This document shows positions 1-4,409 of a stretch of DNA of 25,298 nt, piece by piece. Position 1 is the stretch's first letter, and each line of letters opens with the position of its first letter. Under the pieces are notes generated by a model. That model was not told the DNA's origin. It did no database searches and was given only the letters and a program-made list of their open reading frames with translations. A program made the translations under genes and the position numbers. Source of the DNA: a virus. Location: positions 1 through 25,298 of IMG/VR virus record IMGVR_UViG_3300031608_000694. The stretch is one strand, 5' to 3'.

Positions 1-327
1 AATTGTCTTCTGTTGCTCTATGTATCGTTTAAGCTCTCCCATGTTCATTGAAAGGTTCTCATAGTCTGGGACGCTCATTGCAAAGTATACTAGACTACCA
101 CCATTTTCCTTTGCAAATTTAGCTTTAAACTCTTCAAAGTTTGCCTCAGTTACAGCATAAAACTGTAATGGATACATGGATAAACCTTTAGGGTGTCCTT
201 GTATTGGTATTTGTTTCTCTATAAATTTTGTCTGTATTTCTACCTGATTTGGTATAAGACTACAACCACTACTAATTATCAGTAGCAGTGCTAGACTCGA
301 GATCCGCAAGAATCTTTGCTGTTCCAC
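1..327 (-). CDS. o-spanin-like outer-membrane lipoprotein (3' end cut by window)
   Basis: This gene runs off the left edge, leaving 109 codons. It starts at a GTG (327-325) placed 7 bases after a strong AGGAGG ribosome site. The N-terminus is a short charged stretch followed by a hydrophobic run ending in SSGC (Cys about residue 22), a lipoprotein signal. The mature part is polar. It begins inside the upstream gene (56-base overlap, different frame), and that gene encodes a single-pass membrane protein with a coiled coil. This is the Rz/Rz1-type arrangement in which an inner-membrane spanin and an outer-membrane lipoprotein join to fuse the two membranes at lysis of a Gram-negative host. The call rests on architecture and position, not on sequence similarity. 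The mature part is longer than classical Rz1 proteins, so another phage lipoprotein is possible. Confidence 0.6.
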   Translation of the reverse strand, partial: MEQQRFLRISSLALLLIISSGCSLIPNQVEIQTKFIEKQIPIQGHPKGLSMYPLQFYAVTEANFEEFKAKFAKENGGSLVYFAMSVPDYENLSMNMGELKRYIEQQKTI

Positions 328-640
328 TATTCACCCTCCTTTCAATTAACCCAGGTTTTCTTAGGGTCAACATTGTTAAATCATGTTCTCTAAATTTCTT
401 AGCTAGATTATCACCATAAGCTTCTGATGCTTTTAGTTTTATACCTAACTCCTTTGTAAGCGCCTGATTTTTTTCAAAATCCTCAGCTAGCTTATCTATT
501 GTTTGCTGACTTGTTTGAGCTGCTATTGATAGTTTAGCATTGTTCTCGGTTAAAACAGTAAGTCTTTTCTCTGTCAACCAGTAGTAACCACCAAAAGCCA
601 TTGCCATTGCAAGTATAATACCGATTAATATCTTGCTCAT
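272..640 (-). CDS. i-spanin-like inner-membrane protein (Rz type)
   Basis: The protein has about 122 residues. One membrane segment (residues about 3-22, rich in Ile/Ala/Gly and ending GGYYWL) is followed by a long polar region rich in Lys, Glu, Gln and Ala that looks like coiled coil, then a basic C-terminus. I chose the ATG at 640 because it overlaps the previous stop as ATGA and sits after GGGAG; an in-frame ATG five codons upstream has no ribosome site. A single N-terminal anchor plus periplasmic coiled coil, with a lipoprotein gene starting inside it, is the known design of two-component spanins. It would act in the last step of host lysis. No endolysin or clear holin is visible next to it. 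Confidence 0.65.
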   Translation of the reverse strand: MSKILIGIILAMAMAFGGYYWLTEKRLTVLTENNAKLSIAAQTSQQTIDKLAEDFEKNQALTKELGIKLKASEAYGDNLAKKFREHDLTMLTLRKPGLIERRVNSGTAKILADLESSTATDN

Positions 641-903
641 TTGGGAGTCTCCCATGGCGAGGCTTCGTCGTACACCTGAGCTTCTAGTTTATCTATTCGT
701 TGAGCAAGTAATGGATAATCTGCTCTCCACTTTGCTTCCTTCTTGGCAATTTCTATATCGTATTTTTCTGATAAGTAGAACATAATGTTGTTTACTTTTA
801 CTTGGAACCAAGCACCAACTTTAGTGCTAAAGAACCACTTACTAAATGCGTTTCCAAATACTGCTGTTACACATGCTATAGCTAGTCTAGTTAATATTAA
901 CAA
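637..903 (-). CDS. Small membrane-associated protein of the lysis cluster
   Basis: The protein has 88 residues. It begins at a TTG (903-901) supported by AAGGAG seven bases upstream and overlapping the end of the previous gene. The N-terminal 30 residues are largely hydrophobic (LAIACVTAVFGNAF, then KWFF) and could be one membrane segment. The rest is amphipathic with many charged residues and a predicted helical Glu/Lys-rich stretch. It is translationally coupled to the i-spanin through an ATGA overlap. A holin role is conceivable from position, but one weak segment is little support. I do not recognise a family. Confidence 0.6.
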   Translation of the reverse strand: MLILTRLAIACVTAVFGNAFSKWFFSTKVGAWFQVKVNNIMFYLSEKYDIEIAKKEAKWRADYPLLAQRIDKLEAQVYDEASPWETPK

Positions 904-1532
904 TTCCCTGCTCCTTCTGTTAGAAATGTAGCAAAATCCATCATGCCCCTCTCCTCCTTTTGAAGATTCATACCTTCTCGGGTGGCCTTAAATAAATTCT
1001 TAGCATGATCGTCATTATGATTAACATGTAATCCTGCCTTAAATGACTTGTAATCATTGTTACTGGCATGGCTTCTCATTTTAGTGCCACTAATACCAGC
1101 TACACCTTCTGCATCAGGGTCTCTCTGTCCTGCTGATAAGATGTTTATTTTCTTATAGTTGTATTCTTTTCCATTGTACTTATGAGCCAATGCTTTAAAT
1201 TGTTTTACCCTATCACTACCTACAACCATTGTTGCGTGTGTATGTCCTTCTTGGTGGAACTTTTTAAGTTGTGCTAAGAAGTGTGGGTGTTCTTTTGTTG
1301 AGTGTTCAAAGTTTACATCTGGGTGTACACTCTTTAGGAAGTCTTTTTTATGTTCGTGGTGTAAAGGATTAGATTTCTTATCCTGTGAATGACTTACAAT
1401 AACTGCATGGTTAGCACCAATTGAATCTGCATGAGATTTTACTTTATCTATTACCTTAGAATGTCCAGCAGTTGGAGGGTTCATTCTACCATATGAGAAT
1501 ACTATATGTTTATCGTTATTTTCTGTTGTCAT
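897..1532 (-). CDS. Nucleotidyltransferase, cytidylyltransferase/NMNAT-like fold, His-rich
   Basis: The protein has 211 residues. GRMNPPTAGH (15-24) matches the (H/T)xGH nucleotide-binding motif of the cytidylyltransferase/NMN-adenylyltransferase superfamily, and GISGTKMR (about 146-153) matches its second signature, (I)SxTxxR. VVGSDRV (about 103-109) fits the central beta-strand signature. These enzymes transfer a nucleoside monophosphate to a small phosphorylated acceptor; the acceptor here cannot be told. The protein is rich in His and Lys. The C-terminus ends with an FATFLTE segment (200-206) resembling T4 head-protein cleavage sites. The gene overlaps the preceding ligase-like gene by 17 bases and has no clear ribosome site, so translation is probably coupled. 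Confidence 0.75.
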   Translation of the reverse strand: MTTENNDKHIVFSYGRMNPPTAGHSKVIDKVKSHADSIGANHAVIVSHSQDKKSNPLHHEHKKDFLKSVHPDVNFEHSTKEHPHFLAQLKKFHQEGHTHATMVVGSDRVKQFKALAHKYNGKEYNYKKINILSAGQRDPDAEGVAGISGTKMRSHASNNDYKSFKAGLHVNHNDDHAKNLFKATREGMNLQKEERGMMDFATFLTEGAGNC

Positions 1533-2691
1533 TTTTATTAAAGTTTAGCGCACTAAACTCCTTCCTGTCTACGAATTTTGATGGTCTGCCACCTCTTATG
1601 GCTACAAACCCTTCTGGTTTAACTTTCTGTCCGTCTACTTCATGCCCCCATTCTGACTTCTGAGACATTGTTTTTGTAATAACGTCTTTAGCTGCCTGTA
1701 AGTGTTTGTGCATACCCATTGGTCCTGTGAAGTGGTCCTTATTCTTATTTATATGTCCCATAGTATTATCCATGGTAGTTTGGTGTCTGGCTTTAGCTTG
1801 ATCTGTCTTAACGCCATCTATCTTCTTCTGATGGCTCTTAGCGTGATGTGCTACAAACCCCTCATGCGAGTGTTCTTCACCTGTCCGTACTGTATGATTA
1901 ATGTAAGTCTTCATTGCCACAGCGTGTTTCTGGACTGTCTCATGATGTTCTTTAGGGGTATTTTTGAAGTGTGCTACAGCCTGTTCCAAGTGATGGTCTA
2001 CTTGCTTACGATCTTCTAAGCTATACCTGTGGCTAGTAACATCGTGGTTAGCACTCATAAGGTGCACATCTTTGTGCTTTGTGAACGTCTTAGCGTCAAT
2101 AGCGCCGTGTTTAGCTTTCATATCCGCTATAGTCTTACCCTCATACTCCGTGTGTATCGCTAACCCTAGCTTAGCTCTCTTAGCTGCTTTACCGTGTTCT
2201 GAGTCTGCTGGGGCGTGATATGTTATTAACTGTGGTGTAAAGTCTACCCTGTTGTTCTTCTTATCGTGGTTCACATCGCCCGCGTGCATGATGTCCGCTT
2301 GGTACACACCATTTGGCTTTATCTTGTGAGCGTGATCTAAGGCACCCTTGAGCTTACTTACTAAGCCAGGTGCATGTCCATGATTCTTATCTATATCCTC
2401 ATGGGTGTGATTAATCTTTGGTGTTTTGTTGAATGCTGACTTGGATGCTACAAAGAACTTGCCGTTCTCTGGGTGTTTCCCAAATACAACAGCTGGACTG
2501 CCATCGTACTTAATAGTTGTATCTGTTTGAGATTTCCCTTTACCTTGTAAGTCGTTGTGGACATCATTTATAGTATGGAATGCGTGTCCAAAACCTTTAT
2601 GTCCAGCATGGATAACGTGGTCCTCAACATGCTCTAGATGTTTGAGTTTATCCTCTTCTTTGTCTTCTTTTAAAAATTCAGTAAATCTCAT
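1516..2691 (-). CDS. His-rich ligase-fold (covalent nucleotidyltransferase-like) protein with capsid-targeting-like N-terminus
   Basis: The protein has 391 residues and is exceptionally rich in His and Lys. KYDGSP (61-66) fits motif I (KxDG) of ATP-dependent DNA/RNA ligases and capping enzymes, in which the Lys becomes AMP- or GMP-linked. YQADIMHAG (130-138) fits the motif III region, PEGFVAIR (359-366) fits motif IV (EGxV), and SKFVDRKEF (371-379) may be motif V. The N-terminus MRFTEFLKE resembles the T4 capsid-targeting sequence (internal protein III starts MKTYQEFIAE), which the prohead protease cuts after (L/I)xE. A perfect late promoter lies 6 bases before the ATG and there is no ribosome site. 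I infer a head-packaged RNA/DNA ligase-like protein. The substrate is unknown and activity is unproven. Confidence 0.7.
   Translation of the reverse strand: MRFTEFLKEDKEEDKLKHLEHVEDHVIHAGHKGFGHAFHTINDVHNDLQGKGKSQTDTTIKYDGSPAVVFGKHPENGKFFVASKSAFNKTPKINHTHEDIDKNHGHAPGLVSKLKGALDHAHKIKPNGVYQADIMHAGDVNHDKKNNRVDFTPQLITYHAPADSEHGKAAKRAKLGLAIHTEYEGKTIADMKAKHGAIDAKTFTKHKDVHLMSANHDVTSHRYSLEDRKQVDHHLEQAVAHFKNTPKEHHETVQKHAVAMKTYINHTVRTGEEHSHEGFVAHHAKSHQKKIDGVKTDQAKARHQTTMDNTMGHINKNKDHFTGPMGMHKHLQAAKDVITKTMSQKSEWGHEVDGQKVKPEGFVAIRGGRPSKFVDRKEFSALNFNKNDNRK
1746..1753 (-). promoter_or_regulatory. Possible internal T4-type late promoter
   Basis: A perfect TATAAATA on the minus strand inside the ligase-like coding region. 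It lies about 215 bases upstream of the nucleotidyltransferase start and could give late expression of that gene and the lysis genes. It may be chance within A+T-rich coding sequence. Confidence 0.3.
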
Positions 2692-2696
2692 GTTAG

Positions 2697-2704
2697 TATT
2701 TATA
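2697..2704 (-). promoter_or_regulatory. T4-type late promoter, ligase-like gene
   Basis: A perfect TATAAATA. With T4 spacing, transcription would start at or within a base or two of the ATG (2691), giving an almost leaderless mRNA. The glycosyltransferase stop codon lies inside the promoter. Confidence 0.6.
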
Positions 2705-3476
2705 ATAATTTTATAAAGGGAAAGTCTAATCTTTTACTTTTCGTCCCTTTTAATTTCATAACCTCCTCTACGGGTAATGGCACAGCAAATTCTGTTTCTG
2801 AATAATATAATGTCTTATCAATATTCCTATCCACAACACCTTTCCTGCCTATTCTATTTAAACATACGATATTACCTGAATGTCTTTCTGAGACATCTGG
2901 TAACTCTTTTATTCTTTCTATAAACTCTCTGTCTCCCCAATGATGTCCTGTAAAGGACTCATCATAACCACCAGCTTCCCAATACAAATCCTTATTTATT
3001 ATAAAGGAGTTCATATGTCCTGGATAAGTTAATATCTCTTGTTTATGTTTCAGCCAACAATCATGCTGATAAAACGATCTAGGATTGTAGACCTTTGTCA
3101 TCAGTCTTCCTGCTGTTTCTGTAGCAATTTGCATGTCTATATCAAAGAATGCTATTGTATCTGTTAAAGCGTATTTTGCTATTAAGTTTCTACATCCATG
3201 AGAATTGAAACCTAAGTTTTCAGTTACTTTCCATAGTTGTAATGAAGGACCATAATCAGGTAAGTCCCAGTCTTTTAATATATCTAAAGCTGGTATTTGT
3301 TCTGAGCCGTCGTCTACTAAGAATATATCTATTAGTGAAGGCCACTCTCGCCATATAGGTAGCAGGTTAGCTAACTGCTTGTCGTCCTCAAAATAAGTAT
3401 ACCCTATTGTAAGTCTAGGCTTCTTCTGTCTTGAGCTTTGTAACGTCTGTTGCTGGGAAGTCAATATCGTCTCCAT
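2700..3476 (-). CDS. Family 2-type glycosyltransferase
   Basis: The protein has up to 258 residues. VDDGS (54-58) is the nucleotide-sugar-binding motif at the end of a Rossmann-like strand, FDIDM (111-115) is the DxD-type metal site, and GGYDE (169-173) with GHHWGDREF (177-185) fits the acceptor/catalytic-base region of GT-A glycosyltransferases (GT2 or galactosyltransferase-like). It would add a sugar from a nucleotide-sugar donor to an unknown acceptor such as host surface polysaccharide, virion protein or DNA. The start is uncertain: the ATG at 3476 lies 62 bases inside the previous gene, while an in-frame TTG at 3464 follows GGAG with a 6-base gap. The TagD-like enzyme gene lies a few hundred bases upstream. 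Confidence 0.8.
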   Translation of the reverse strand: METILTSQQQTLQSSRQKKPRLTIGYTYFEDDKQLANLLPIWREWPSLIDIFLVDDGSEQIPALDILKDWDLPDYGPSLQLWKVTENLGFNSHGCRNLIAKYALTDTIAFFDIDMQIATETAGRLMTKVYNPRSFYQHDCWLKHKQEILTYPGHMNSFIINKDLYWEAGGYDESFTGHHWGDREFIERIKELPDVSERHSGNIVCLNRIGRKGVVDRNIDKTLYYSETEFAVPLPVEEVMKLKGTKSKRLDFPFIKLL

Positions 3477-3747: not shown

Positions 3748-3910
3748 TGTATAACTCCAAATTATTTTCTACTTTACTTATATCTATATCATTTTTAGAA
3801 GCGATATCCTGTGCAGTAAATTTCCAGTAAGCTCTGAACTCACCATGTACTGCTCGTTTCTCTGCGTTAAGGCAGTTAACCACTCTACGAATTGCTGTCG
3901 TTTTTTTCAT
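3716..3910 (-). CDS. Unknown small basic protein
   Basis: The protein has 64 residues and is basic at the N-terminus (MKKTTAIRRVV). The start follows GAGG at a 9-base gap. It overlaps the end of the cytidylyltransferase by 26 bases and the next gene by 32, which fits the tight packing here. A middle stretch (FTAQDIASKNDIDISKVENNL) could form a helix-turn-helix-like unit, but this is weak. The function is unknown. Confidence 0.55.
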   Translation of the reverse strand: MKKTTAIRRVVNCLNAEKRAVHGEFRAYWKFTAQDIASKNDIDISKVENNLELYNARSESSSYH

Positions 3911-4409
3911 TATCTATTTCCTCGGGTTTAGCTTGGTAAGTCGGCATCGCGTCTTTGTAAGCTGTTAATTGATCTGTCTGGCTGGTAAATATTCTTTGTC
4001 TAAGAGATGTACTACTGAATGAGTGATCTCTTACATTGTAGAATAATTCTATTCCACGATCTAAACATATCTGCTTAGCCGTAAAATCTATATCTCTATA
4101 TTCTGTTCCGAGAATCCTTACATTTAAAGGGAGGGTGAGGAACAAGTCCTCTAATTCTGATTCTGTAGAGTACATAACTATCTCATCAACATACTTTACA
4201 GCAGCTAATTGTATTTGTCTCTCTACTATACTTTGTATTGGTTTGCTCTTAGATTCTCTATCATAAGTTGGATCTACTTGCAGCGCTGCTATCAGGTAAT
4301 CACAATGTCTTTTGGCCTCCTCCAGCATAACCACATGTCCAGCATGTAATAAATCGAAGGTACTACAGGTAATTCCTATCTTGCCACAGTCTTTGTAATC
4401 TAGCCTCAT
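3885..4409 (-). CDS. Glycerol-3-phosphate cytidylyltransferase-like enzyme (TagD type)
   Basis: The protein has 174 residues. TFDLLHAGHVVML (17-29) contains the HxGH motif that binds the CTP/ATP phosphates. KPIQSIVERQIQLAAVKYVDEI fits the conserved ERxxxxxxxxYVDxV region of TagD/HldE-type cytidylyltransferases, and HSFSSTSLRQRI fits the C-terminal (S/T)STxxR motif. Known members make CDP-glycerol, CDP-ethanolamine or ADP-heptose; substrate choice cannot be read here. A polar tail of about 30 residues follows the domain. The ATG overlaps the stop of the small upstream gene as ATGA and follows GGAG. The glycosyltransferase lies downstream in the same operon, so a shared role in a glyco- or polyol-phosphate modification is possible. 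Confidence 0.8.
   Translation of the reverse strand: MRLDYKDCGKIGITCSTFDLLHAGHVVMLEEAKRHCDYLIAALQVDPTYDRESKSKPIQSIVERQIQLAAVKYVDEIVMYSTESELEDLFLTLPLNVRILGTEYRDIDFTAKQICLDRGIELFYNVRDHSFSSTSLRQRIFTSQTDQLTAYKDAMPTYQAKPEEIDNEKNDSNS

Follow-up and report, generated by a model that had tools for sequence, protein, structure and literature searches.

The window, a stretch of 25,298 nucleotides of DNA from a marine T4-like phage (IMG/VR record IMGVR_UViG_3300031608_000694, positions 1 to 25,298), carries on its minus strand a gene for a DUF6267 protein and, overlapping it by 17 bp, a gene for a HIGH-type nucleotidyltransferase-like protein, referred to here as the partner. The features of this locus are as follows.

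2697-2704, minus strand: T4-type late promoter TATAAATA, exactly 5 nt before the DUF6267 ATG
1516-2691, minus strand: DUF6267 protein of 391 amino acids, putative covalent nucleotidyltransferase resembling the ligase superfamily (from Pfam, PHROG 455, motifs, and AlphaFold2)
2665-2691, minus strand: residues 1 to 9, MRFTEFLKE, predicted capsid-targeting sequence (CTS) of the DUF6267 protein (from conservation, the T4 CTS rules in PMC9026906, and virion enzymes of relatives)
2500-2511, minus strand: motif I, K61-Y-D-G64, with Lys61 as candidate nucleotidyl acceptor (K, D, and G in 159/159 relatives)
1603-1614, minus strand: motif IV, E360-G-F-V363 (E and G in 157/157, V in 154/157)
1564-1578, minus strand: motif V, K372-F-V-D-R376 (K in 156/156, R in 155/155)
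897-1532, minus strand: partner, HIGH-superfamily cytidylyl/NMN-adenylyltransferase-like protein of the T4-GC 190 family (PF01467, E = 4.4e-5; phrog_3041 and the C-terminal part of phrog_455)
900-944, minus strand: CTS-like segment at the partner C terminus, MMDFATFLTEGAGNC, with SD-like AAGGAGGAGAGGGGC before it (from clade conservation)

Two genes downstream of the cytidylyltransferase-like partner lies an Rz-like spanin (272-655, minus strand; phrog_739, E = 3.7e-11). Upstream of DUF6267, on the same strand, are a glycosyltransferase-2-like gene (2700-3476) and an RfaE/HldE-like cytidylyltransferase gene (3885-4409), whose products are possibly surface-sugar enzymes. In phage HTVC008M (L080, 7619-8281), a Zeta-toxin/AAA_33-like P-loop kinase (MIPFILKEG...) is encoded between DUF6267 and the cytidyltransferase.

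The initial annotation had placed the DUF6267 gene under a late promoter, and this holds: TATAAATA occupies positions 2704 to 2697 on the minus strand, and its 5-nt spacing to the ATG is conserved in the clade (L003, L006, L011, L017, and L020). By the geometry of T4 late promoters, the DUF6267 transcript would start at or beside the ATG. In the sister genome G001 (L095-L103), 7 of the 47 copies of TATAAATA lie exactly 5 nt before an ATG, other spacings hold 0 to 3, and no SD is visible. From this pattern, some late mRNAs, that of DUF6267 among them, seem to form a leaderless class.

The protein is a full-length member of DUF6267 (PF19782, E = 2.3e-93, 314 bits against a curated cut-off of 27, profile positions 2 to 374 of 376) and also matches the N-terminal half of PHROG 455 (E = 2e-79). 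Relatives of this family, named T4-GC 71 in annotated cyanophages, are encoded in at least 464 phage records, and our literature search found no paper on it. Unlike the window protein, most family members from isolated cyanophages are without a head-targeting N terminus. Its composition (11.0% His, 13.0% Lys, pI 9.3) bears out the high histidine content that had been called extreme, but this is common to the relatives (median 7.2%, up to 14%) and is therefore not peculiar to the window protein; that the histidines condense DNA or bind metal finds no support beyond composition. In the old S-PM2 record (NC_006820; L081) DUF6267 is split into two annotated genes, the second annotated as a cytidyltransferase; in LN828717 the S-PM2 match is in one piece, and BFVD holds a 591-aa S-PM2 fusion.

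To describe conservation within the family, we used two alignments, of 36 and 160 relatives, and counted ungapped sequences only. KxDG and EGxV are present at residues 61 to 64 and 360 to 363, as originally reported, and K61, D63, G64, K84, and Q131 are kept in 159/159 relatives. The full set of invariant positions comprises H18, H21, E23, K61, D63, G64, K84, Q131, N265, K335, E360, G361, K372, and R376, and the catalytic residues stay the same throughout some 160 relatives, whose identity falls as low as 24 to 30%. Motifs I (KxDG), Ia, III, IV (EGxV), and V, including the motif V lysine, follow one another in the order of the covalent nucleotidyltransferase superfamily. Family-wide conservation, which the initial annotation had proposed to look for at Lys61, Glu360, and the N-terminal FxxFLxE, thus applies to the two catalytic residues whenever they are ungapped, but not to the N terminus.

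The AlphaFold2 model of the 391-aa protein, built from the 36-sequence alignment, is confident (pLDDT 87.4, pTM 0.85), as is that of a compact 300-aa relative (pLDDT 93.7, pTM 0.87). In the predicted secondary structure, motif I ends a strand and is followed by a second one, a helix precedes the strand that holds motif III, and motifs IV and V occupy adjacent C-terminal strands, which is how these motifs are placed in the ligase superfamily. The long protein carries a large helical insertion between motifs IIIa and IV. In Foldseek searches against the PDB it gave weak matches, among them Trl1, REL1, and LigA, and it matches a phage RNA ligase at E = 0.013. For the compact relative, archaeal DNA ligases, an NHEJ ligase, T4 Rnl2, a tRNA ligase, capping enzymes, and LigA adenylation domains lead, and superfamily members make up most of the top 27 matches; each is weak, the best having E = 0.053, a probability of 0.72, and a TM score of about 0.26, and Foldseek returned no PDB match at E = 0.001 or better for the DUF6267 models. 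Because the list is so consistent and the motifs are invariant, membership in the superfamily is likely, and from model and sequence combined we are rather confident that DUF6267 is a covalent nucleotidyltransferase.

Sequence profiles give no link to known ligase families. When 52 members were scanned against Pfam, DUF6267 itself was the only meaningful match; the RNA ligase families of Pfam (PF09414 and others) were not matched, profile search reached no PDB ligase chain, and neither a Ia domain nor a LigA profile was found in Pfam and NCBIfam. Moreover, OB domain and motif VI are absent, as the chain ends about 20 residues past motif V, which disfavors a classical DNA ligase or capping enzyme. 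T4 RNA ligase 2 and archaeal ATP-dependent DNA ligases, the best PDB fold matches, though weak ones, share with DUF6267 the KxDG motif, a motif III-like QxD, EGxV, and the motif V lysine, in this order; DUF6267 differs from them in having no OB or known C-terminal domain, in its helical insertion, and in lacking sequence-profile similarity. Of the earlier ligase-fold claim, the invariant motif residues and a predicted fold consistent with the superfamily stand, while "RNA/DNA ligase" is not established, given the individually weak structural matches and the missing OB domain. The best reading of sequence and model is that DUF6267 forms a new branch, lacking the OB domain, of the covalent nucleotidyltransferase (ligase/capping-enzyme) superfamily and is predicted to be enzymatically competent. 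Polynucleotide end joining is a tentative choice for its reaction, to which we give somewhat less than an even chance; NAD-linked chemistry with the partner and nucleotidylation of another substrate are the alternatives.

The first nine residues, MRFTEFLKE, fit the pattern M-x(1-4)-[FY]-x-x-[FY]-[IL]-x-E in the register of the T4 signal MKTYQEFIAE, to which the initial annotation had likened them. The related pattern M-x(1-4)-F-x-x-[FY]-[LI]-x-E, usually spanning exactly ten residues, starts 93 of 114 long DUF6267 relatives, compared with 0.26 expected when the first 40 residues are shuffled; its four fixed columns have an entropy of 0 to 0.46 bit and the columns between them 2.7 to 3.1 bits. 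Conservation and shuffling thus rule out a chance likeness to the T4 CTS. Three related genomes, with 524 predicted genes between them, have the motif in only three genes (0.76 expected), two of which are DUF6267. A family-wide CTS is likewise ruled out: none of the 46 short relatives matches strictly, and the cyanophage ones checked have no CTS. HTVC008M was rejected as an example, as it has degenerate N termini only (MYNDLLVED and MKTLKELLRKK).

The predicted signal lies outside the folded domain, in a flexible tail: residues 1 to 7 are predicted to be disordered (pLDDT below 50), and the fold begins at about residue 20. For packaging of the T4 protein IPIII, its ten N-terminal residues are enough; positions 4 and 7 of the CTS serve targeting, positions 8 and 10 processing. 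The T4 protease gp21 trims Alt at either terminus, and the T4 internal proteins are basic (PMC9026906). A gp21-type prohead protease (Peptidase_S77, E = 1.6e-41) is encoded in G001, the window itself being a 25-kb fragment without head genes. With T4 IPI-III and Alt, of which Alt is also a head-packaged enzyme, DUF6267 shares the N-terminal M-x-x-[YF]-x-x-F-[IL]-x-E, a T4-like phage with gp21, and late expression; in contrast, its mature part is unrelated, its signal is one residue shorter, and its packaging and cleavage are predictions. Cleavage is uncertain, since the P1' residue is Asp in the window protein and mostly acidic in the family.

The initial annotation missed the partner, for which no PDB relative was found and which, of the two proteins, is the one directly detected in virions of relatives. 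The association of the two genes is close: DUF6267 and the partner form one polypeptide with a single N-terminal CTS in L131, L187, L189, L197, L198, L209, L223, L233, and L237. Where the genes are split, the CTS may be on DUF6267 (window clade, L022, L025, L029, L032, and Stenotrophomonas phage DLP6, with MMKFTQFLAE), on the partner (S-SM1, S-SZBM1, S-CREM2, S-SCSM1, P-RSM6, S-CRM01, and L034-L053), on both (L030 and C48C1), or on neither (P-HM2 and Syn1). In the window clade, the partner carries a similar segment at its C terminus (FATFLTE, FKTFLTE, FQTFLKE, FSNFLTE, or FKRFLL[TS]E), with an SD-like AAGGAGG before MMDFATFLTE. Given the trimming of T4 Alt at either terminus, this segment could be a C-terminal propeptide; alternatively, the SD-like sequence would allow a separately translated short peptide, so that the segment could instead be an internally started small CTS protein. 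In sister partners (L011, G001:139811), either an 81-aa basic domain (KGVAKYNRRTGGN...) or a Cys-containing basic one (CWDGYK...) comes after the C-terminal FxTFL[TK]E.

Published virion proteomes allowed us to compare the motif with actual virion content, albeit in phages whose DUF6267 has no CTS. In S-CREM2 (virion proteome in PMC10665884), all five annotated proteins with the CTS motif, two of them of unknown function (ORF13 and ORF136), are virion proteins (hypergeometric P = 6e-4, or 4e-5 with 24 structural proteins left out).

S-CREM2 (OR473000.1) virion SAM hydrolase: MKDFDSFLEE
S-CREM2 virion ORF13: MKDLHSFLTE
S-CREM2 virion APH/ChoK kinase: MKRFDAFLTE
S-CREM2 virion ORF136: MQTFSMFFSE
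S-CREM2 virion cytidylyltransferase: MKNFSSFLTE

These observations concern ORFs 6, 12, 13, 14, 136, and 154 of OR473000.1 (L125 and L128), which encode non-structural virion proteins; the virion Cas9 has an internal RFASFMAEA at residues 18 to 26. The cytidylyltransferase/NMNAT encoded next to DUF6267 has been reported in virions of S-SM1 (PMC3037559), S-SZBM1 (PMC9146016), S-CREM2 (PMC10665884), and S-SCSM1 (PMC9602691), and in all four of these cyanophages it starts with a CTS-type N terminus (MKKFSAFLNEA, MRFRQFIIEA, MKNFSSFLTEA, and MKSFLQFLKEA, respectively). This T4-GC 190 enzyme thus has the same N-terminal signal as the window DUF6267 and a neighboring or fused gene; it differs in its HIGH/Rossmann fold, and the window-clade partner is without the N-terminal signal. 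A virion kinase of S-CRM01 is cited in PMC10665884, and the S-CRM01 kinase gene examined here starts with MISFDQFLSE. Conversely, the CTS-less DUF6267 proteins of S-SZBM1 (MAKNTHLEHLED, gene 81477-82670) and S-CREM2 (gp87) do not appear in the respective virion tables, and SSCSM1_257 is not tagged as a virion protein in S-SCSM1. The small motif-bearing proteins gp084 and gp085 of S-SZBM1 and SSCSM1_30 were not detected or tagged in virions, which shows that the motif predicts virion content imperfectly, and the authors of the proteomes could not exclude co-purified contaminants (including PMC9602691). A small segment after the CTS (GYGxYADPxGNVTHxSxDGKLV / GFGYWADKNTGKITHRS) is shared by S-CREM2 ORF14 (L128), the S-SM1 cytidyltransferase (L248), and the S-CRM01 kinase (L160), as if a cassette had been swapped between unrelated virion enzymes. 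Apart from a brief citation in a review on T4, our literature search yielded no paper that connects cyanophages with capsid targeting. These proteomes strengthen the reading of the N terminus as a CTS and make it a candidate general cargo signal of Kyanoviridae; from sequence and by analogy to T4, we are rather confident that the CTS directs DUF6267 into the head in the window phage.

An alternative is that DUF6267 is a ligase-superfamily enzyme that acts unpackaged in the late-infected cell, its FxxFLxE helix docking the partner or another phage protein. Many CTS-less DUF6267 proteins still keep every catalytic residue, in line with such a role, and the similar segment at the partner C terminus in the window clade is what a pairing motif might look like. 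Yet the same N terminus is found on unrelated virion enzymes (SAM hydrolase, kinase, and cytidylyltransferase), with 5/5 in the S-CREM2 virion, and one would not expect a SAM hydrolase to carry a motif for docking this partner; in addition, residues 1 to 7 are predicted to be disordered. We therefore regard this alternative as unlikely.

Slightly less probable still is an NAD-linked cargo, in which the partner, as an NMNAT, makes NAD+ and DUF6267 adenylylates with it (or returns NMN), thereby resisting NAD+-depleting defenses or feeding NAD+-dependent joining. The partner does hold the GRxNPP..GH and ISGTKMR signatures of HIGH adenylyltransferases, its relative is annotated as NMNAT in S-SCSM1, the invariant H18-x-x-H21-x-E23 of DUF6267 precedes motif I, at the place that the NMN-binding Ia domain takes in LigA, and NAD+ salvage genes are known from phages (PMC9503650). 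On the other hand, no match to Ia-domain, NadV, or NadR profiles was found, the partner matches PF01467 weakly and has no PDB relative, and the connection of HxxHxE to NMN binding is a suggestion only. A catalytically dead internal head protein that keeps the ligase fold for structure or DNA binding would fit the basic, His/Lys-rich composition (pI 9.3) that recalls the basic T4 internal proteins, but is very improbable given that none of the superfamily catalytic residues varies across the roughly 160 relatives, including CTS-less ones not found in virions.

Taken together, DUF6267 is probably a member of a covalent nucleotidyltransferase family that would be loaded into the head by a T4-type CTS. 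This reading is supported by the invariance of the motifs, the confident model with the motifs in the right order, the conservation of the CTS, the partnership and fusion of the two genes, and the presence of the partner in virions of relatives. The protein would be a late product, its promoter lying immediately before the start codon, and its first 9 to 10 residues would recruit it to the prohead core, where gp21 probably removes the signal after Glu9. By analogy to T4, the cleaved protein would then stay in the head with the DNA, enter the cell at infection, and may act before phage gene expression. There, Lys61 would take up AMP or another NMP and transfer it to the 5' end of a polynucleotide; the most likely purpose would be to seal or modify broken DNA or RNA, with the neighboring HIGH-type enzyme taking part.

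More broadly, it is conceivable, though we hold this view tentatively, that Kyanoviridae and related T4-like phages use the CTS as a general label for injected enzymes (SAM hydrolase, kinases, perhaps Cas9, and NMNAT-like proteins), and that DUF6267 and its HIGH partner are a two-enzyme nucleotidyl-transfer or repair module delivered in this way, with DUF6267 as a ligase-superfamily family not described before. Several cyanophage proteomes have found metabolic enzymes in purified particles without distinguishing cargo from contamination, and a CTS-like signal offers a direct test of this distinction, by which the cargo of abundant marine and freshwater phages could be predicted from their sequences alone. 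DUF6267, present in hundreds of phage genomes, is also assigned to a catalytic superfamily as a likely member, and some phages may arrive with a ligase-like enzyme in hand.
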